A DNA stretch of 64,000 bases from assembly GCF_004765815.2 (NCBI RefSeq), contig NZ_SBIS02000008.1, positions 62,001 through 126,000 on the forward strand. The letters are read 5' to 3'. The translations under genes were made by a program, and so were the position numbers. Under the pieces are notes generated by a model, which had not been told where the DNA came from, searched no databases, and was given only the letters and a program-made list of their open reading frames with translations. This DNA comes from Halorussus salinus. Its GTDB lineage: Archaea; Halobacteriota; Halobacteria; Halobacteriales; Haladaptataceae. Position 1 is the first letter of the stretch, and every line of letters starts with the position of its first letter. Shown in pieces: positions 12,829 through 29,229 of this stretch.

Positions 12829-12866
12829 CGTTTGCGCTTTCGTTTACGCAATCGAAAACGTAAACG
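12829..12866. repeat. (CGNNNN)n hexamer array B, upstream of the P-type ATPase gene
   Basis: CG starts at 12829, 12835, 12841, 12847, 12853, 12859 and 12865, seven without a break. Spacers are TTTG, CTTT, TTTA, CAAT, AAAA, TAAA. It lies about 105 bp before the chosen ATPase start, in a region that would be leader or promoter. Confidence 0.9.
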
Positions 12867-12929
12867 CTTTTTTAGCAAGCTTAGTCGCGTTCGTTCCGAC
12901 TACGAGAGTGGCGTCGCTCGTCGGTAGCG

Positions 12930-14286: not shown

Positions 14287-14324
14287 CGTTTGCGTAAACG
14301 CATTCGAAAACGCAACCGTAAATG
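14287..14324. repeat. (CGNNNN)n hexamer array C, between the DUF456 gene and parA
   Basis: CG starts at 14287, 14293, 14299, 14305, 14311 and 14317, then TG at 14323. Spacers are TTTG, TAAA, CATT, AAAA, CAAC, TAAA. It lies about 30 bp upstream of the parA TATA box and is in the same 6-bp register as array D (78 bp, 13 units, apart). Confidence 0.88.
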
Positions 14325-14353
14325 TTCTTTCTCCAACACTCGTCTGACGAAGG

Positions 14354-14360
14354 ATTAAAT
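14354..14360 (+). promoter_or_regulatory. TATA-like element of the parA operon
   Basis: TTAAATA lies 31-37 bp before the ATG at 14391, predicting transcription to start close to the start codon. Confidence 0.65.
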
Positions 14361-14364
14361 ACGT

Positions 14365-14388
14365 CGTTTGCGTTTGCGCAAACGCAAA
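14365..14388. promoter_or_regulatory. Array D / perfect 22-bp palindrome in the parA promoter (putative operator)
   Basis: CG starts at 14365, 14371, 14377 and 14383. Bases 14367-14388 are a perfect palindrome of half-site TTTGCGTTTGC. It fills the space between TATA box and start codon, so a bound protein would block transcription. It is built from the same hexamers as the arrays. An autoregulatory operator is inferred. Confidence 0.7.
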
Positions 14389-14390
14389 TC

Positions 14391-15281
14391 ATGTCTCGGT
14401 CCATCCGCGCCTGCACCTTCCTCGACAAGGGAGGGACGGGCAAGACCACGACGGCCGCCCACCTCGGCGTCGCGCTCGCCGAACGCGGCCACGACGTGTT
14501 GCTCATCGACCTCGCGGGCAAACAGGGCGACCTCGTCAAGCACTTCGGGCGATGGGAGACCGTCGAGCGCCAGATAGACGAGGACGACGACTGGCCGAAC
14601 ATTTCGACGGTCTTTCAGGACCAGTGGGACGCCATCGCCGAGAAGTTGGGCGACGCCGCAGTCGAGGACCTCATCTTGGAGACCGACGAGGGCGTCGATC
14701 TGATTCCGGCCCATCCGGGCCTCGACAGCCTCGACGCCGAACTCGGCAACATCGACGACGCCCACGACCGCTACTCCCGGCTCGACTCGTTCTTGAACGA
14801 GTACGTCGAACCGCTGGGTTACGACGCCATCCTCATCGACCTGCCGGGCCTGACGAACAACGTCAGCTACAACGGCTTGTGGGCCGCGCGGAACGTCATC
14901 GCGCCGGTCGAGATGGGACCGTTCGAGTCCGAACAGGCCGAAGCGTTGCGCGCGGACCTCGACAAGATCGGCGCGAACTTCGACGTGGACGTGAAACTGG
15001 CGATGGTCCTCCCGAACAAGGTGGACACGCGAACGACACTCGCCGAGGAGTACCTCGACGCCTTCGAGGAGGCCTACCCCGAGGCGTTCGTCTCCTCGCA
15101 CGTCCCCGTCAGTCAGGACATCCGGAACGCCGCCGAGTCGGGCCGGACCGCGTTCGCGCTCGAAGAGCCGTCCACGACCGCCCAACGCGCACGCGAGTCG
15201 TTCCTCGACAACGCCGAGACGCTGGTCGAGCGACTCCGGGAGCGCGAGCGCGCCGCCCCGGCGGGAGGTGAGGTGGCGTGA
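14391..15281 (+). CDS. parA: ParA/Soj family ATPase
   Basis: This 296-residue protein has the deviant Walker A box of ParA/MinD proteins (FLDKGGTGKTTTAAHL, signature Lys13 and Lys18), switch-like DLAGKQGDLVKHFG (Walker A') and Walker B ILIDLPGLTNN. ParA proteins bind DNA non-specifically with ATP and move or position DNA or other cargo with the help of a partner that binds a specific site. The start is fixed by TATA spacing; an open upstream extension to 14322 is repeat-derived. The stop overlaps the start of the next gene (GTGA), so the two are translationally coupled. CG-hexamer arrays flank the operon on both sides. Confidence 0.93.
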   Translation: MSRSIRACTFLDKGGTGKTTTAAHLGVALAERGHDVLLIDLAGKQGDLVKHFGRWETVERQIDEDDDWPNISTVFQDQWDAIAEKLGDAAVEDLILETDEGVDLIPAHPGLDSLDAELGNIDDAHDRYSRLDSFLNEYVEPLGYDAILIDLPGLTNNVSYNGLWAARNVIAPVEMGPFESEQAEALRADLDKIGANFDVDVKLAMVLPNKVDTRTTLAEEYLDAFEEAYPEAFVSSHVPVSQDIRNAAESGRTAFALEEPSTTAQRARESFLDNAETLVERLRERERAAPAGGEVA

Positions 15282-15670
15282 GCGACCCCGACCTCGAAGA
15301 ACTCCGCCAGCAGACTCAGCGCACCGACCGCCTCGCGGAACCCGACGCCCGCGAGGACGGGACCGAAGACTTGGTGGAGGATTTGGTCGAAGCCCTCGGC
15401 GCTATCGACTCGGGCGAACAGGCCAAGACCTTCGCCGCCAGAGACGAGTCGGTGACGGCGCTTCTCTCGACGCTGGACGACCGCCAGCACGACCTCGAAG
15501 CCGTCGGCACCGCGCTACAGGGCGCGCTCGGCCGCGAAATCGAAACCGACTCGCTGGACCGGAGCGAAATCGTCCGCCTCGCAGTCCGGCTCGGCCTCCG
15601 AGAGGCCGCGCCGGAGTACCTCGACCTCCTCGCCGACGCGTCCGGCGAGTACGCTCGCAGAAACGTCTGA
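15278..15670 (+). CDS. Small partner protein encoded with ParA (putative centromere-binding protein)
   Basis: This 130-residue acidic protein starts at a GTG overlapping the parA stop by 4 nt. The N-terminal two thirds is helical and charged (DLEELRQQTQRTDRLAEPD; EDLVEDLVEALGAIDSGEQ). The C-terminus IETDSLDRSEIVRLAVRLGL (88-107) looks like the strand and first helix of a ribbon-helix-helix fold, although I cannot confirm this by eye. ParB itself (HTH, CTP-binding) is not present. In many plasmid and archaeal systems the ParA gene is followed by a small site-specific DNA-binding protein, and this is the natural candidate here. Confidence 0.75.
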   Translation: MSDPDLEELRQQTQRTDRLAEPDAREDGTEDLVEDLVEALGAIDSGEQAKTFAARDESVTALLSTLDDRQHDLEAVGTALQGALGREIETDSLDRSEIVRLAVRLGLREAAPEYLDLLADASGEYARRNV

Positions 15671-15692: not shown

Positions 15693-15778
15693 CGACAACG
15701 TTTTCGCAATCGTTTACGCTTCTGTTTTCGGCTACGTTTTCGTTTTCGAAATCGGAAACGTCTCCGAGTCCGAAAACG
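15693..15778. repeat. (CGNNNN)n hexamer array E, directly downstream of the parA operon
   Basis: Fifteen consecutive 6-bp positions from 15693 to 15777: fourteen are CG and one (15723) is TG. Spacers include TTTT, CAAT, TTTA, CTTC, GCTA, AAAT, GAAA, TCTC, AGTC, AAAA. It begins 22 bp after the stop of the partner gene and holds no gene. Confidence 0.93.
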
Positions 15779-15914
15779 ACGGAGGGGATTCGTTCGTGAC
15801 GACGCTATCGACGCCGGTTTTCGGTCTCAGTCGCGCGACGCGAGTGACTGCCCACCGCTCTCGCGGACACGTCTCTCGACTATCGGTGCGGACGGGTCCC
15901 TTACTTGACAGAAA

Positions 15915-15958
15915 CGTTTGCGTAAACGATAGCGAAAACGCAATCGTAAACGAACTCG
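15915..15958. repeat. (CGNNNN)n hexamer array F
   Basis: CG starts at 15915, 15921, 15927, 15933, 15939, 15945, 15951 and 15957. Spacers are TTTG, TAAA, ATAG, AAAA, CAAT, TAAA, AACT. It lies 85-125 bp upstream of the gene at 16042. Confidence 0.9.
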
Positions 15959-16041
15959 GTCGCCGAGGTCGCGTTCCGAACGTGGCTCGCTCCTGACACG
16001 CGGCGTGGTGATTGATAACGCACGAGGGCGTAGCGCGGGTC

Positions 16042-16431
16042 GTGACCGACGACGCGCCGACGTTCGACATCCCCCGGCGGCCCGAACGGGTCTACCCCCG
16101 CGAGGGCGGCGTCGAATACGAGGGCGGGACGGTGTTCCGACTCTCGCCCGACGCCGAGGTCTCCGAGGAGACGTTGGCGTCGCTCGTGGAGGCGGTTCTG
16201 GAGGGCGAGCGATACACCTACGGCGACTGGTTCGAACTCCCTGCCCCGGTGTATCTGGTCCACGACGAGCGCCACTCGACGGCGTTCCGGGTCGTGGTTC
16301 GCTACGGGGACGTGGAGTTTCACGTCCTGCCCAACACCGCCGCCGAGGCCCTGCGAGGGTTGTACTCGCGGCTTCGGGAGTCGAGCGACTTCGATTGGCG
16401 CGTCGATTGCGAGACGACGCGGCCGGAGTGA
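16042..16431 (+). CDS. Haloarchaeal protein of unknown function
   Basis: This 129-residue protein starts at GTG (VTDDAPTFDIPRRPERVYP). The frame is open 10 codons upstream to a TTG at 16012, but ATTGATAA lies there at TATA distance from the GTG. The body alternates strands and helices (EGGTVFRLSPDAEVSEETL; GDWFELPAPVYLVHDERH; FRVVVRYGDVEFHVLPNT). No catalytic pattern or metal site is evident. It precedes the winged-helix regulator at 16503, which has its own promoter. Confidence 0.65.
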   Translation: MTDDAPTFDIPRRPERVYPREGGVEYEGGTVFRLSPDAEVSEETLASLVEAVLEGERYTYGDWFELPAPVYLVHDERHSTAFRVVVRYGDVEFHVLPNTAAEALRGLYSRLRESSDFDWRVDCETTRPE

Positions 16432-16471: not shown

Positions 16472-16479
16472 TTTTTATC
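16472..16479 (+). promoter_or_regulatory. TATA-like element of the gene at 16503
   Basis: TTTTTATC lies 24-31 bp before the ATG, fitting a leaderless transcript. Confidence 0.55.
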
Positions 16480-16502
16480 GCCACCGCGATACCCCCTCAG
16501 TA

Positions 16503-17168
16503 ATGACGCTTCCCACGACCGACGACGCGACCTTGCGGACGCGCGATACCGAGGAGCAGATGTGGGACCTCGCCGAGGAGGACCCCGCGGCGGCGCGCCG
16601 GGCCTACCCGAGCGGGTGGCTCTGGCTCACCGGCGAGGAGGCCGTTCGGTCGCTGTTGGCGGCGCTGTTGGACGCCGACACCGACGCTCGCTACGGCGTC
16701 GAGGACCTCGCCTCGCGCTCCGGACTCGGCGAATCGGCGGTCGAGACGGCCATCGAGGCGCTCATCTCGGTCGGCGTGTTGGTCGCCGACGAGGGCGCGT
16801 ATCGCATCAACGACTGCGCCATCGTCTATCACGCGGCGACGGAGCTATCGGCCGCGGTCGAGGCGACCGGCGCGCCCGACGACGAGTCGGGCTTCGAGTA
16901 TCTCGCGCGCCTCGAATCGGTGCGCCTGATGCTCGACGCGCTACTTGACGTGGACCCGGACCAGTCGCTCGAACAGGAGGACATCCACCGGTTGAGCGGC
17001 GTCTCCCGAAAGCGGGTGTGGCACCACGTCGAGAAGTTGGTCGATTTGGGCGTGGTCGAGGAGTCGGGCGACGAGTACGCCGTCGGCGGCGCGACCCCCG
17101 TGGTCCGGTGGATTCAGTCGCTCGACGCGGCGGTCGTCGGTGCGACGCTCGCTCCGTCCCACCCCTGA
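16503..17168 (+). CDS. Double winged-helix regulator-like protein
   Basis: This 221-residue protein has two helix-turn-helix regions. The first is about 60-100 (YGVEDLASRSGLGESAVETAIEALISVGVLV) and the second about 150-200 (LEQEDIHRLSGVSRKRVWHHVEKLVDLGVVEE). Each is followed by a wing-like strand, and the N-terminal 50 residues are acidic with a Trp-rich patch (GWLWLTGEEAV). Two HTH domains in one chain suggest binding of a long or pseudo-symmetric site as monomer or dimer. No ligand domain was seen. It lies convergent to the PadR gene; the target is unknown. Confidence 0.75.
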   Translation: MTLPTTDDATLRTRDTEEQMWDLAEEDPAAARRAYPSGWLWLTGEEAVRSLLAALLDADTDARYGVEDLASRSGLGESAVETAIEALISVGVLVADEGAYRINDCAIVYHAATELSAAVEATGAPDDESGFEYLARLESVRLMLDALLDVDPDQSLEQEDIHRLSGVSRKRVWHHVEKLVDLGVVEESGDEYAVGGATPVVRWIQSLDAAVVGATLAPSHP

Positions 17169-17213: not shown

Positions 17214-17507
17214 TTACGCGGTCGCTTCTCGGGGCAAATCCACGTATTGGGTCTCCCACTCGCGGCGCGCTTCTATCTCTCGGGTTCCGCGGCGAGTCAG
17301 CGTGTAGTAGTTGGTCCGGCGGTCGCGCTGGCCCTTCTCCACGAAGCCCTTGTCCACGAGCGTATCGAGGTTCGGGTACAGTCGGCCGTGATGAATCTCT
17401 TTCTCGTAGTACGATTCCAGTTCGTCTTTGATAGCGAGGCCGTGCGGTTCGTCGAGGCCCGCGATGACGTACAGCAAGTCCCTTTGGAAGCCTGTCAGGT
17501 CGTACAT
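17214..17507 (-). CDS. PadR family transcription regulator
   Basis: This 97-residue protein is a short PadR-type winged helix: LTGFQRDLLYVIAGLDEPHGLAIKDELESYY, then HHGRLYPNLDTLVDKGFVEKG and the wing RRTNYYTLTRRGTREIEAR. The GRLYPNLDTLV recognition segment is the family hallmark. The C-terminal dimerisation helix is reduced, as in other haloarchaeal short PadR proteins. The start at 17507 is preceded by GGGGAG, a Shine-Dalgarno-like sequence; the open frame beyond it is not protein-like. PadR proteins are usually repressors of efflux or stress genes; no such gene is adjacent. Confidence 0.9.
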   Translation of the reverse strand: MYDLTGFQRDLLYVIAGLDEPHGLAIKDELESYYEKEIHHGRLYPNLDTLVDKGFVEKGQRDRRTNYYTLTRRGTREIEARREWETQYVDLPREATA

Positions 17508-17609: not shown

Positions 17610-18344
17610 TTATCGGTCCGCGGTCGTTAAGCATTCCATACTCACGGATTCGAGCCACGTCTCCGCGACCGACGAGTCGCCGGTCCGGCTCGCACGAGGA
17701 ATGGCAACGATGCGCATTTCGTCGCCGTCCGACACGCCGTCGGCCAAGTCGTGTTCGAGCAGTAGCGGGACCGCCGTCTCACCGGTAGGGTCCCGGAGGC
17801 GAACCTCTCGGGCGTCCACGTACTCACTAGCGTCTGGCGCGAACGAGAGGTAGCCGACCGAACTGCACCGCGGGCACTTGGCGTGGCTCCGGAACTCGCG
17901 CCCGCGCTGGGCGACGTATCGCGTGACCTCCTCGCACTTGGCACACCGGAACCCTGCGCGAACGACCTTCGGCCGAAGCTGGCCGGTCTCGGCGACGACT
18001 CCTCGGGTGGTGTGGAGTTGGTTCAGGTGTTCCGCCCGGAGGTCTCCGAGCGCGAGTTCGCTCTCGGCGGGGAGGTCGCTGACCCGGAGGTACACGTCCC
18101 GCATCTCGCGGTCCGCGTCGTCGGCCAGAAAGCGCCCGAGCGCGGCCTTCCCCGCCCGGAGCGCCTCGTCGGGGTTCGTCAGGAGCGGCCGGACGAACTG
18201 GTAGTCGTGGCCGAATCGCTCGCAACTCACCGACAGGGCGCGCTCGTCGGGGTACCGCTCCACGAACCGGCGCACCGACTCGCCGCGGTCACGATACACG
18301 TACTCGTACCACTTCTCGGTCAGGTCGCCGCTTCGCGCCGACAT
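17610..18344 (-). CDS. Orphan MCM N-terminal-domain protein (no AAA+ ATPase)
   Basis: This 244-residue protein aligns by eye with the N-terminal region of the archaeal MCM helicase: helical A domain (about 1-95, ending YLRVSDLPAES), then the OB fold (LNQLHTTRGVVAETGQLRPKVVRAGFRC) with a zinc finger of Cys134, Cys137, Cys157 and Cys160 (CAKC...CPRC). The strand segment SEYVDAREVRLRDPTGE and DLADGVSDGDEMRIVAIPRA follow. It stops where the AAA+ motor should begin, with a proper stop codon. In MCM this part forms hexamers and binds DNA. It could be a regulator of MCM loading or an independent ssDNA/dsDNA-binding protein (inference). Confidence 0.85.
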   Translation of the reverse strand: MSARSGDLTEKWYEYVYRDRGESVRRFVERYPDERALSVSCERFGHDYQFVRPLLTNPDEALRAGKAALGRFLADDADREMRDVYLRVSDLPAESELALGDLRAEHLNQLHTTRGVVAETGQLRPKVVRAGFRCAKCEEVTRYVAQRGREFRSHAKCPRCSSVGYLSFAPDASEYVDAREVRLRDPTGETAVPLLLEHDLADGVSDGDEMRIVAIPRASRTGDSSVAETWLESVSMECLTTADR

Positions 18345-18465
18345 GGGGTGGCGTTCTCGCGTTGCGGCCTTTGTTACACGGCTCCTGTCGAGCGATGCGT
18401 CCGGTTAGCGCCGCCCTGTGGTCGCGGCCTCCTCGGGCGATTTCCCCGCATTTCGGTCATATCTC

Positions 18466-18531
18466 CGTTTTCGTTTACGTTTACGAATCCGTTTCGCAAT
18501 CGTTTTCGCAATCGGCTCCGGATTCGTTTCG
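18466..18531. repeat. (CGNNNN)n hexamer array G, upstream of the FAD/Fe-S oxidase gene
   Basis: CG starts at 18466, 18472, 18478, 18484, 18490, then after a one-base slip at 18495, 18501, 18507, 18513, 18519 and 18525, ending with CG at 18530. Spacers are TTTT, TTTA, TTTA, AATC, CAAT, TTTT, CAAT, GCTC, GATT. It lies between the divergent MCM-like and oxidase genes. Confidence 0.9.
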
Positions 18532-18600: not shown

Positions 18601-18608
18601 AATTTATG
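18601..18608 (+). promoter_or_regulatory. TATA-like element of the FAD/Fe-S oxidase gene
   Basis: AATTTATG lies 25-32 bp before the ATG at 18633. This argues for that ATG rather than the upstream in-frame ATG at 18606, which overlaps the element. Confidence 0.65.
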
Positions 18609-18632
18609 ACTCTTCACGTGTCATACGGTGTC

Positions 18633-21600
18633 ATGTCTTCCCCTCCCGCGGACGCCCCCGACTTCGAGTCCTACCGGGACTCGCTCGGTATCGAGGTACC
18701 CGACGACCCCGACCACGCCGAACTGGCGGCCGACCTCCGGCGGGCCTGCGAGGGCGCGGTCCGGTTCGACGAGTACAGCCAGATTCTCTACGCCACCGAC
18801 GGGAGCGTCTACGAGGAGCGTCCCGCGGGAGTCGTCTTCCCGACGGACGCCGACGACGTGGCGGCCGCGACCGAAGTCGCGGCCGCCCACGACGCGCCGG
18901 TCCTCCCTCGCGGCGCGGGGTCGTCGCTCGCGGGCCAGTCGGTGGGGTCGGGCTGTGTCGTCCTCGACCTCTCGCGGCATCTGGACGCGATTCTTGAGGT
19001 GGACCCCGACCGGAAGCGCGCGGTCGTCCAGCCCGGCGTCGTGCAGGACGACCTCGACTCCCGGCTGGCCGACGACGGCCTGAAGTTCGCGCCCGACCCG
19101 GCCTCCTCGAACCGAGCGACTGTCGGGGGCGGCATCGGCAACAACTCGACGGGCGCACACTCGGTCCGGTACGGCATCACCGACGCCTACGTCGAGGAGG
19201 TCGAAGCCGTCCTCGCGGACGGAAGTCGGATTCGCGCCCGCGAGGTCGAACTCGACGGGCCGGAGTGGGAGCGAATCGTGGCGAAGGACGACCGCGAGGC
19301 CGCGATTTACCAAACGGTTCGGTCGCTGGTCGAGGAGAACGAAGCCGAAATCGAGGACAAGTACCCGAAACTCAAGCGGTCGGTGTCGGGCTACAACCTC
19401 CACAAGTGTATTTACGTAAACGAAAACGGAAACGAATGCGTAAACGTTGCCAAGCTGTTCGTCGGCGCGGAGGGGACGCTGGGCACCGTCACGGAGGCGA
19501 CGCTCTCGCTGGTCTCGCAACCCGACGAGACCGCGCTGGCGCTGTACTGCTTCTCGGACCTGCTGTCGGCGATGGAGGCCGTGCCGGTCGCGCTCGACTA
19601 CGACCCGAGCGCGGTCGAGTTGATGGACGACGAGGTGTTCCGACTGGCCCGCGAGTCCACCGAGTACGCGCAGTACGCCGAGCCGATTCCCGACGACGCC
19701 GCGGCCGCGCTGATGCTGGAGTTCGATTCGGAGGTGAAAGTCGATTTGGAGGAGGCCGTCGCGGAGACGAATGCCGAGTTCGTCCACGCGGGCGCGGCCT
19801 TCGACGTGTTGGAGGCTTACGACGAGGAGGCCCAGTCGAAGCTCTGGAAGCTCCGGAAGGCGGCGATTCCCCTGCTGATGAGCATGGCGGGCGACCCCAA
19901 ACCCTATCCCTTCATCGAGGACGCGTCGGTTCCGCCCGACGAGTTGGCCGAGTACGTGCAGGGTTTCGAGGGAGTTCTGGAGGCCCACGACACCTCGGCG
20001 GCGTACTTCGCCCACGCCGGGAGCGGGACCCTCCACGTCCGCCCCGTGCTGAACCTCAAGGAATCGGCGGGCGTCGAGAAGATGCAGTCCATCGCCGAGG
20101 ACGTGACCTCGCTCGTGTTGGACCACCGCGGGTCGTTCTCGGGCGAACACGGCGACGGCCTCGCACGGACGCAGTTCAACCCCAAATTGTACGGTCCGGA
20201 GCTGTGGGCCGCGTTCAAGCAACTCAAGACCTCGTTCGACCCAGACTGGCGGATGAACCCCGGCAAGGTCGTCTTCCGGGACTCGCCCGACGACGTGGGA
20301 CCGACCGGTCCCGGCGCGGCCGCCGAGCGCGGCGTCGGCGCGGACATGCGCGAGAATTTGCGCTACGGCCCGGCCTACTCGTCGCTGGAACCCGCCACCG
20401 AGCAGGACTTCTCGGCGGAGGGCGGCTTCTCGCACCTCGTGGAACTGTGCAACGGCTGTGGTACCTGCCGCCAGACCGACTCGGAGGTGATGTGTCCGTC
20501 CTACCGCGGGATGGACGACGAGATGGCCACGACCCGCGGCCGGGCGAACATGCTCCGAGCCGCGATTTCGGGCGAACTTCCGCCCGACGAAATCTACAGC
20601 GAGCGATTCCAGAAGGAGGTGCTGGACCTCTGTCTGGGGTGTAAGGGCTGTCAGAGCGACTGCCCGACCGGAGTGGACCTCGCCAAACTCAAGGCCGAGG
20701 TCAAGCACCGCTACCACGAGGAGGAAGGCGCTGGCCCCCGCGAACGACTCTTCGCCGAGGTTGACCGCCTCGCTCGCGTCGGCTCTGCGCTCGCGCCGGT
20801 CTCAAACTGGCTGGCCGACCTCCCCGGCGCGGGCCTGCTCGCCGAGAAGACGCTCGGCATCGCCCGCGAACGCGACTTCCCCGAGTTCGCGGGCCAGTCG
20901 TTCGCGTCGTGGTTCGCGGCCCGCGGCGGCCCACGGATTCCGGCCTCGGAGGCCGCGGACCGGGTTCTGCTCGTGCCCGACACCTACACGAACTACGTCT
21001 ACCCCGCGACGGGCCGGGCCGCGGTGCAGGTCCTCGAAGCCGCCGGGGTCCGCGTCGAGGTGCCCGACGCCGACCCGAGCGGTCGCCCGGCGTACTCGGA
21101 GGGCTTCCTCGACGTGGCCCGAGAGCGCGCCGCGGCCAACGTCGCTCGGTTCGCGCCCCGCGTCCGCGAGGGCTGGTCGGTCGTCTACCCCGAACCCTCC
21201 GACGCCGCGATGGTGCAGGACGAGTACCGGGACCTCCTGCCCGACTCGTCGGCCGCCGACCTCCTCGCCGAGAACGCTTACGGCGTCTGCGAGTACCTCG
21301 ACGTGACGCGCCGGGACGACGCCATCGACTTCGACGCGCCCGACGTTCGGCTGGCGTACCACGGCCACTGCAACCAGAAGGCGCTGGGTACTGCTGGTCA
21401 CGCCGCGGGGCTCCTCTCGCGGGCGGGCTACGACGTGGCCGCGCTCGACTCGGGCTGTTGTGGCATGGCCGGAAGCTTCGGCTACCACGCCGAACACTAC
21501 GACCTCTCCCAGTCCATCGGCGACATCCTGCGCGACCGGATTTCCGAAGCGGACGCCGACGAGGTGGTCGCGCCCGGCGCGTCCTGTCGGTCGCAACTGG

Positions 21601-21659
21601 ACACCGAGCGCCCGACCCACCCCGTCGAGGAGTTGGCCGCGGCGCTTCCACGCCGATAG
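18633..21659 (+). CDS. FAD-binding and Fe-S oxidoreductase (D-lactate/glycolate dehydrogenase type)
   Basis: This 1008-residue membrane-associated type enzyme fuses the GlcD and GlcF/GlpC modules. An FAD-binding 4 domain (about 50-290) carries LPRGAGSSLAGQSVGSG and GIGNNSTGAHSVRYG. The FAD-oxidase C-domain follows to about 550, with EHGDGLARTQFNP. Two ferredoxin motifs come next, CNGCGTCRQTDSEVMCPS (about 605) and CLGCKGCQSDCPT (about 667). The C-terminal Cys-rich half has HGHCNQK and SGCCGMAGSFGYH. The likely reaction is oxidation of D-lactate or another 2-hydroxyacid, passing electrons to quinone. Residues 261-272, just before GAEGTLG, are encoded by a CG-hexamer array. Confidence 0.92.
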   Translation: MSSPPADAPDFESYRDSLGIEVPDDPDHAELAADLRRACEGAVRFDEYSQILYATDGSVYEERPAGVVFPTDADDVAAATEVAAAHDAPVLPRGAGSSLAGQSVGSGCVVLDLSRHLDAILEVDPDRKRAVVQPGVVQDDLDSRLADDGLKFAPDPASSNRATVGGGIGNNSTGAHSVRYGITDAYVEEVEAVLADGSRIRAREVELDGPEWERIVAKDDREAAIYQTVRSLVEENEAEIEDKYPKLKRSVSGYNLHKCIYVNENGNECVNVAKLFVGAEGTLGTVTEATLSLVSQPDETALALYCFSDLLSAMEAVPVALDYDPSAVELMDDEVFRLARESTEYAQYAEPIPDDAAAALMLEFDSEVKVDLEEAVAETNAEFVHAGAAFDVLEAYDEEAQSKLWKLRKAAIPLLMSMAGDPKPYPFIEDASVPPDELAEYVQGFEGVLEAHDTSAAYFAHAGSGTLHVRPVLNLKESAGVEKMQSIAEDVTSLVLDHRGSFSGEHGDGLARTQFNPKLYGPELWAAFKQLKTSFDPDWRMNPGKVVFRDSPDDVGPTGPGAAAERGVGADMRENLRYGPAYSSLEPATEQDFSAEGGFSHLVELCNGCGTCRQTDSEVMCPSYRGMDDEMATTRGRANMLRAAISGELPPDEIYSERFQKEVLDLCLGCKGCQSDCPTGVDLAKLKAEVKHRYHEEEGAGPRERLFAEVDRLARVGSALAPVSNWLADLPGAGLLAEKTLGIARERDFPEFAGQSFASWFAARGGPRIPASEAADRVLLVPDTYTNYVYPATGRAAVQVLEAAGVRVEVPDADPSGRPAYSEGFLDVARERAAANVARFAPRVREGWSVVYPEPSDAAMVQDEYRDLLPDSSAADLLAENAYGVCEYLDVTRRDDAIDFDAPDVRLAYHGHCNQKALGTAGHAAGLLSRAGYDVAALDSGCCGMAGSFGYHAEHYDLSQSIGDILRDRISEADADEVVAPGASCRSQLDTERPTHPVEELAAALPRR
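19415..19446. repeat. (CGNNNN)n hexamer array H, inside the FAD/Fe-S oxidase gene
   Basis: CG starts at 19415, 19421, 19427, 19433, 19439 and 19445 with spacers TAAA, AAAA, GAAA, AATG, TAAA. It is read in frame as YVNENGNECVNV between the conserved SGYNLHK and KLFVGAEGTLG of the FAD domain, a loop that varies among relatives. Confidence 0.85.
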
Positions 21660-29060: not shown

Positions 29061-29176
29061 CGACACCGTTTTCGATTTCGTAAGCGTTCTCGTTTTCGAT
29101 AACGAAATTGTTCGCGTTTTCGTTTTCGATTGCGTAAACGTATTCGTTTCCGCAAACGTTTACGTTTTCGAAAACG
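29061..29176. repeat. (CGNNNN)n hexamer array I, the longest array
   Basis: Twenty consecutive 6-bp positions from 29061 to 29175: nineteen are CG and one (29109) is TG. Spacers are almost all A/T: TTTT, ATTT, TAAG, TTCT, ATAA, AAAT, ATTG, TAAA, TATT, TTTC, CAAA, TTTA, AAAA. It fills most of the space between two convergent genes. Confidence 0.95.
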
Positions 29177-29229
29177 AACTGCCCCCTCGCGCCGACGCTC
29201 CGCAAAAGCCCCGAAAATCGAGGTTGCAC

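Follow-up and report, generated by a model that had tools for sequence, protein, structure and literature searches.

The control of MCM loading in archaea is poorly understood, and the locus described here raises a question within this subject, namely what purpose a gene might serve that encodes the N-terminal domain of MCM and nothing of its motor. The gene lies in a stretch of 64,000 nucleotides of Halorussus salinus (hereafter, the window), inside a 524-kb contig of a 4.75-Mb genome assembled in 11 contigs. The original prediction saw here a standalone MCM N-terminal domain with helical A domain, OB fold and intact zinc finger, considered it functional rather than decaying, and connected it with a parA operon and with nearby sequence arrays. 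The open reading frame runs from ATG to TAA on the minus strand and encodes a protein of 244 amino acids, called MCM-N in the following, with these parts:

17610-18344, minus strand: MCM-N, standalone MCM N-terminal domain (domain matches, predicted fold, 23 orthologues)
18090-18323, minus strand: helical A domain, residues 8-85 (AF2 helices 5-18, 21-30, 48-56 and 58-72; alignment to MCM)
17841-17975, minus strand: C4 zinc subdomain, residues 124-168 (Cys134/137/157/160 invariant in 24/24; net charge about +8 in Halorussus orthologues)
17769-17795, minus strand: stub of the allosteric communication loop (ACL), residues 184-192, RDPTGETAV (MCM counterpart QESPExLRxGExPx)
17631-17681, minus strand: C-terminal end of the OB fold with shortened beta9-beta10 (NT) hairpin, residues 222-238 (alignment, AF2 model)

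The protein is confirmed to be an MCM N-terminal domain, composed of helical A domain, OB fold and C4 zinc finger, and nothing further. In particular, Pfam MCM_OB matches residues 101-218 (E 5.9e-14, above the curated cut-off), NCBIfam MCM aligns residues 24-222 to model positions 25-233 of 682, that is, to its N-terminal third only, and the MCM N-domains 4me3 and 1ltl are recovered as PDB sequence matches (E about 1e-15; profile E 1.5e-29). The zinc ligands Cys134/137/157/160 and the LRPKV...FRC core are exactly those originally described. The AAA+ motor, with its Walker A/B motifs and arginine finger, is absent, as the protein stops after the OB fold, 6 residues past the NT hairpin region. 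The A domain goes undetected by Pfam MCM_N and is visible in the predicted fold only. Specifically, AF2 supplied with the orthologues and with the N-domains of full MCMs gave a model with pLDDT 88.8 and pTM 0.85, superseding a run on the orthologues alone (pLDDT 57). Residues 3-239 of this model align to 1ltl_A, a chain of the MCM N-domain dodecamer of M. thermautotrophicus (Z 27.1, rmsd 2.0 Å, 229 residues), Foldseek returns a TM of 0.86 against an MCM N-domain, and MCM chains fill the structure search among the matches listed. MCM-N thereby has the A, zinc and OB subdomains characteristic of MCM, and shares both this fold and the C4 zinc site with the MCM N-domains of known structure (1LTL, 4POF/4POG, 4ME3). 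Identity is about 21-23% in structural alignments; to the N-domains of haloarchaeal MCMs it averages about 27%.

The stop ahead of the motor is genuine. A frameshift or a split MCM gene, considered as a candidate, is ruled out because the 16 Halorussus orthologues stop near the same place, a PadR gene starts about 100 bp downstream, and the motor is elsewhere: the only one of this genome resides inside the full-length MCM on another contig, and a search revealed neither an orphan MCM motor in the genome nor a motor adjoining MCM-N. The full-length MCM is a frame of 1521 amino acids (G000:C6, about 137402-141316) whose P-loop domain matches fall in three separate pieces, a pattern that suggests the presence of two inteins. 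As a separate observation, plasmid NZ_CP035122 of H. pelagicus carries, just upstream of a full plasmid MCM, a 225-aa C-terminal MCM fragment comprising AAA lid and WH and annotated as MCM (L127:1495-2172), which is perhaps the leftover of a replacement or duplication.

An intact orthologue of MCM-N is found in 16 of the 18 Halorussus genomes. The other 15 proteins are 64-89% identical to that of the window, and all 16 have open frames, the four cysteines and a nearly identical stop position. The two negative genomes are G009, a single contig which is also devoid of a close parA orthologue, and G011, which is 62% complete. Median dN/dS over the 120 Halorussus pairs, computed according to Nei-Gojobori and without correction for GC bias, is 0.26; the two closest pairs give 0.14-0.15. 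The stretch next to the zinc knuckle, residues 161-180, is strongly constrained (pN/pS 0.148). Seven closed Halorussus records place the gene on plasmids of 303-558 kb. When 392 genomes of the order were screened with a profile, eight standalone MCM-N genes came up beyond Halorussus, all in one second haloarchaeal family, where the gene is sporadic (8/125 genomes). Among 393 genomes sampled from the phylum, no further one emerged above threshold; all other matches there sit in frames of at least 689 amino acids and correspond to full MCM. The majority of haloarchaea, and of the second family as well, are without MCM-N. A virus origin was also considered and rejected, as a search of IMG/VR detected no relative. 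The 24 proteins form one clade (support 100/100), with those of the second family as sister to those of Halorussus, and the four zinc cysteines are invariant throughout. Since intact orthologues occur in 16/18 Halorussus genomes, dN/dS is about 0.26 and the cysteines are kept in 24/24, the sequences indicate that MCM-N is under purifying selection in Halorussus and is no decaying relic; orthologue search and codon comparison, both proposed with the original prediction, bear out its preference for function. These results also correct the database labels, 'minichromosome maintenance protein MCM' or 'hypothetical protein', which in RefSeq vary for the same protein (NZ_CP035120 and NZ_CP044524 against NZ_CP096660 and NZ_CP119810).

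A motorless MCM is in itself a known kind. Four haloarchaeal proteins of 312-315 amino acids containing MCM N-domain sequence only were described by Kristensen et al. 2014 (PMC3972481); the pHALXA03 gene examined here agrees with one of these, Halopiger xanaduensis F8DET6 (315 aa), in both length and organism. Like MCM-N, these outliers (PMC3972481) are MCM N-domains without a motor. However, the N-only MCMs that we examined are plasmid-borne, measure 315-324 amino acids, possess a C-terminal tail which by eye resembles a WH domain, and are preceded by a gene for a protein of ~790 amino acids, whereas MCM-N has about 244 amino acids, ends with the OB fold and is stably kept through a genus. 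Three plasmid N-only MCMs group at 100/100 inside haloarchaeal MCM, apart from the clade of 24, and an AU test speaks only marginally against a single origin (p 0.049); the MCM-N lineage probably arose separately. The literature found describes neither this lineage nor its conservation or residue losses. The plasmid genes form a recurring pair, a protein of ~790-820 amino acids followed directly by the motorless MCM with its WH-like tail, at Halopiger pHALXA03 (L131:70-3394), H. vallis unnamed4 (L066:3419-6789) and Haloarcula JP-L23 (L125:1-3400). The larger protein gives no informative Pfam match and its Halopiger representative, which includes a Walker-A-like stretch (PRSGKDST), no PDB match; possibly, the pair combines an ATPase for plasmid replication or transfer with a partner derived from MCM.

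The surroundings of MCM-N in the window comprise the following elements:

18369-18386, minus strand: conserved promoter element AGGAGCCGTGTAACAAAG, 24 nt before the MCM-N ATG, probable TATA region
18466-18495, no strand assigned: array G, made up of five phased CGNNNN units, in the gap that separates the MCM-N and oxidase genes
18606-21659, plus strand: FAD/Fe-S oxidase gene, divergent upstream neighbour (neighbourhood comparison)
17214-17507, minus strand: PadR-family regulator, downstream of MCM-N, with its own conserved upstream region (PF03551, E 1.2e-16)
16476-17168, plus strand: two-wHTH protein, ancestral neighbour (neighbourhood comparison)
16012-16431, plus strand: 139-aa protein, ancestral neighbour (neighbourhood comparison)
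14322-15670, plus strand: parA and a 130-aa partner gene, with no consistent link to MCM-N

A TAACAAAG box stands at the aligned place in 16/16 Halorussus, and CTACCAAAG or a similar sequence occupies roughly the same place upstream of the genes of the second clade. MCM-N is thus probably transcribed from its own promoter, and its mRNA is predicted to be leaderless because the TATA-like box of the window gene lies just 24 nt before the ATG. A regulon sharing this motif was considered and discarded; the motif has one exact site, the others carrying 1-2 mismatches.

In all 16 Halorussus carriers, PadR comes after MCM-N on the same strand, with the genes for the two-wHTH and 139-aa proteins beyond it. 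The FAD oxidase, PadR and wHTH genes also stand together, without MCM-N, in four genomes of sister genera; three of these have the 139-aa gene in view as well, and oxidase and PadR are only 345-394 bp apart. No MCM-N remnant was found at the empty sites of relatives (best HMM score 3 bits). The block is therefore older, and MCM-N either came into it or was cleanly lost. In the second family, an ArgZ-like gene lies beside MCM-N in 7 of 8 cases, with MsrB nearby or, in one genus, aIF2beta, and some relatives lacking MCM-N still keep ArgZ and MsrB close. In that one genus (L085, L086, L088, L089 and L090), the aIF2beta gene, which encodes an eIF2B/5 domain and TRAM, follows MCM-N on the same strand after gaps of 46, 46, 75, 46 and about 242 bp, respectively. 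The neighbours in both clades are non-replication genes and, as the neighbour blocks also exist without MCM-N, synteny points to no function for it. Proximity to Orc1/Cdc6 was likewise discarded as a lead, these genes being on the same replicon and tens to well over a hundred kb away.

Residues were compared between the 24 MCM-N and 31 full MCMs. Pf R124 is one of two arginines that grip single-stranded DNA (PMC3970758); its position is occupied by K in 29/31 MCMs, is basic in none of the 24 MCM-N and is acidic in 19 of them. The position of Pf R186 is R in 28/31 MCMs against 7/24 MCM-N, so that the MSSB basic pair for ssDNA is not preserved. Coupling between N-tier and motor runs through the allosteric communication loop (PMC4619765), the deletion of which is not tolerated in Haloferax volcanii (PMC3972481); in MCM-N this loop is about 7 residues shorter and has lost the QE-PE motif in 24/24, while the NT hairpin is about 4 residues shorter than in MCM. 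The features predicted to mediate ring contacts appear partly kept. Specifically, 20 of the 24 proteins have Y, and the other 4 have C, at the position of Pf F179, a residue needed for MCM hexamers (PMC4627082). The RPKV strand, which in Pf MCM-N forms the sheet between subunits, is conserved in Halorussus; the second clade varies more along it and preserves only the P throughout. Finally, the zinc subdomain, whose net charge in haloarchaeal MCM is -0.9, reaches +7.7 in Halorussus MCM-N and +4.4 in the second clade, the acidic residues of MCM at 129, 133 and 156 being replaced by R/R/K in Halorussus. MCM-N hence differs from archaeal MCM in having no AAA+ or WH domain, no preserved ACL or ssDNA-binding residues, and a basic zinc subdomain. 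The original prediction had envisaged an N-tier able to bind DNA: the N-domain fold agrees with this, but ordinary N-tier behaviour appears unlikely because the ssDNA Arg/Lys pair and the motor-coupling loop are lost. These losses, along with the basic zinc subdomain of Halorussus, suggest that MCM-N is probably an accessory or regulatory zinc/OB protein and no working helicase tier.

The reading that we prefer, with a probability of roughly 40%, is that MCM-N descends from the MCM N-terminal domain as a domesticated paralogue which, having shed the motor, would contact the MCM ring of its own cell at the N-face or N-tier, either capping the zinc-finger face or entering the ring as a motorless subunit. 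Such a contact might limit or time the assembly of the ring or of the double hexamer, and MCM-N would act like a decoy subunit with no DNA-translocating part. The MCM N-domain fold, the purifying selection, the RPKV strand and the aromatic residue at the F179 position support this model. Against it stand the non-replication neighbours, the distance of Orc1/Cdc6, the many haloarchaea without the gene, and the basic zinc subdomain, which would suit the binding of nucleic acid no less than contact with an acidic haloarchaeal MCM. Eukaryotic MCM-BP, a diverged MCM-like protein that binds MCM subunits, offers a functional analogy only. The wider claim, that haloarchaea evolved a dedicated motorless MCM subunit, a putative decoy N-tier regulating ring or double-hexamer assembly and separate from the plasmid N-only MCMs, is rather doubtful. 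PfMCMN constructs of the same extent as MCM-N form hexamers and bind DNA in vitro (PMC3970758, PMC4627082), but MCM-N is a natural gene whose key DNA-binding residue is replaced mostly by acidic ones. As a natural MCM N-domain without coupling loop or ssDNA pair, it would be a probe of N-tier roles besides unwinding, and it would lend itself to a simple genetic test, be it in Halorussus or in Haloferax volcanii, whose MCM N-domain has already been mutated (PMC3972481).

A different possibility, which we hold tentatively, is that MCM-N works outside the MCM world as a nucleic-acid binder of OB-plus-zinc-ribbon type, binding through its basic zinc subdomain and not through the OB channel. The Mcm10 internal domain and RPA DBD-C have such an OB-plus-zinc arrangement and bind ssDNA and replication proteins; MCM-N would operate in a similar manner in repair, transcription or translation. 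For a protein of an acidic proteome, the zinc subdomain has shifted strongly in charge, and this shift, the R/R/K replacements, the constraint on residues 161-180 and the place of the gene just before aIF2beta in one genus of the second family are consistent with this role. On the other hand, charge alone is no proof of binding, the aIF2beta neighbourhood is confined to that genus, and the A domain, which is MCM-specific and would be needless for a plain OB-zinc binder, has been kept. Neither the Mcm10 internal domain nor RPA DBD-C was recovered as a relative by the searches made.

It is improbable that MCM-N serves in defence or plasmid competition by co-assembling with the MCM helicases of plasmids or viruses and so poisoning them. 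These hosts often have MCM genes on plasmids, and motorless N-domains should be natural dominant negatives, but the carriers H. vallis and H. pelagicus also hold plasmid MCMs, inheritance of the gene within Halorussus is stable and shows no turnover of the kind seen in islands, and there is neither an IMG/VR relative nor, by eye, any defence neighbour. Far less probable is an N-tier that cooperates in trans with a separate motor. Separately expressed halves of MCM do so in vitro (PMC4619765), but the coupling loop is lost in 24/24 and there is no orphan motor, the sole one of the genome being part of full-length MCM, and a helicase tier of this kind is consequently unlikely.

Equally hard to sustain is the proposal, contained in the original prediction, that MCM-N belongs to a parA segregation system or binds the CG-phased arrays. 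The positions had been correctly read: parA occupies 14322-15281, the parA/partner pair ends 1.9 kb from MCM-N, and array G sits 122 bp upstream of its ATG. Moreover, parA is within 5 kb of MCM-N in 14/16 carriers, and similar arrays lie upstream of it in most Halorussus. However, the PadR, two-wHTH and 139-aa genes separate the pair from MCM-N, parA is not nearby in two carriers and is rearranged in one of the 14, the second clade has other neighbours, and the sister genera keep the block without MCM-N. As for the arrays, MCM-N is present without them at the H. halophilus locus and at the second-clade loci checked, and the ten of the window are spread over several different genes. The weakest reading, a decaying MCM fragment, could invoke the missing motor and WH and the sporadic occurrence in the second family, but it is refuted for Halorussus by the selection described above, the intact frame and four cysteines in 24/24, and the conserved promoter.

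The ten arrays of the window consist of phased CGNNNN units in which NNNN is A/T-rich, and base-shuffled sequence contains none. They include those at 12829-12870, 14287-14388, 15693-15956, 18466-18495, 19415-19444 and 29067-29180, and one array falls within the reading frame of the FAD oxidase, where it encodes YVNENGNECVN.
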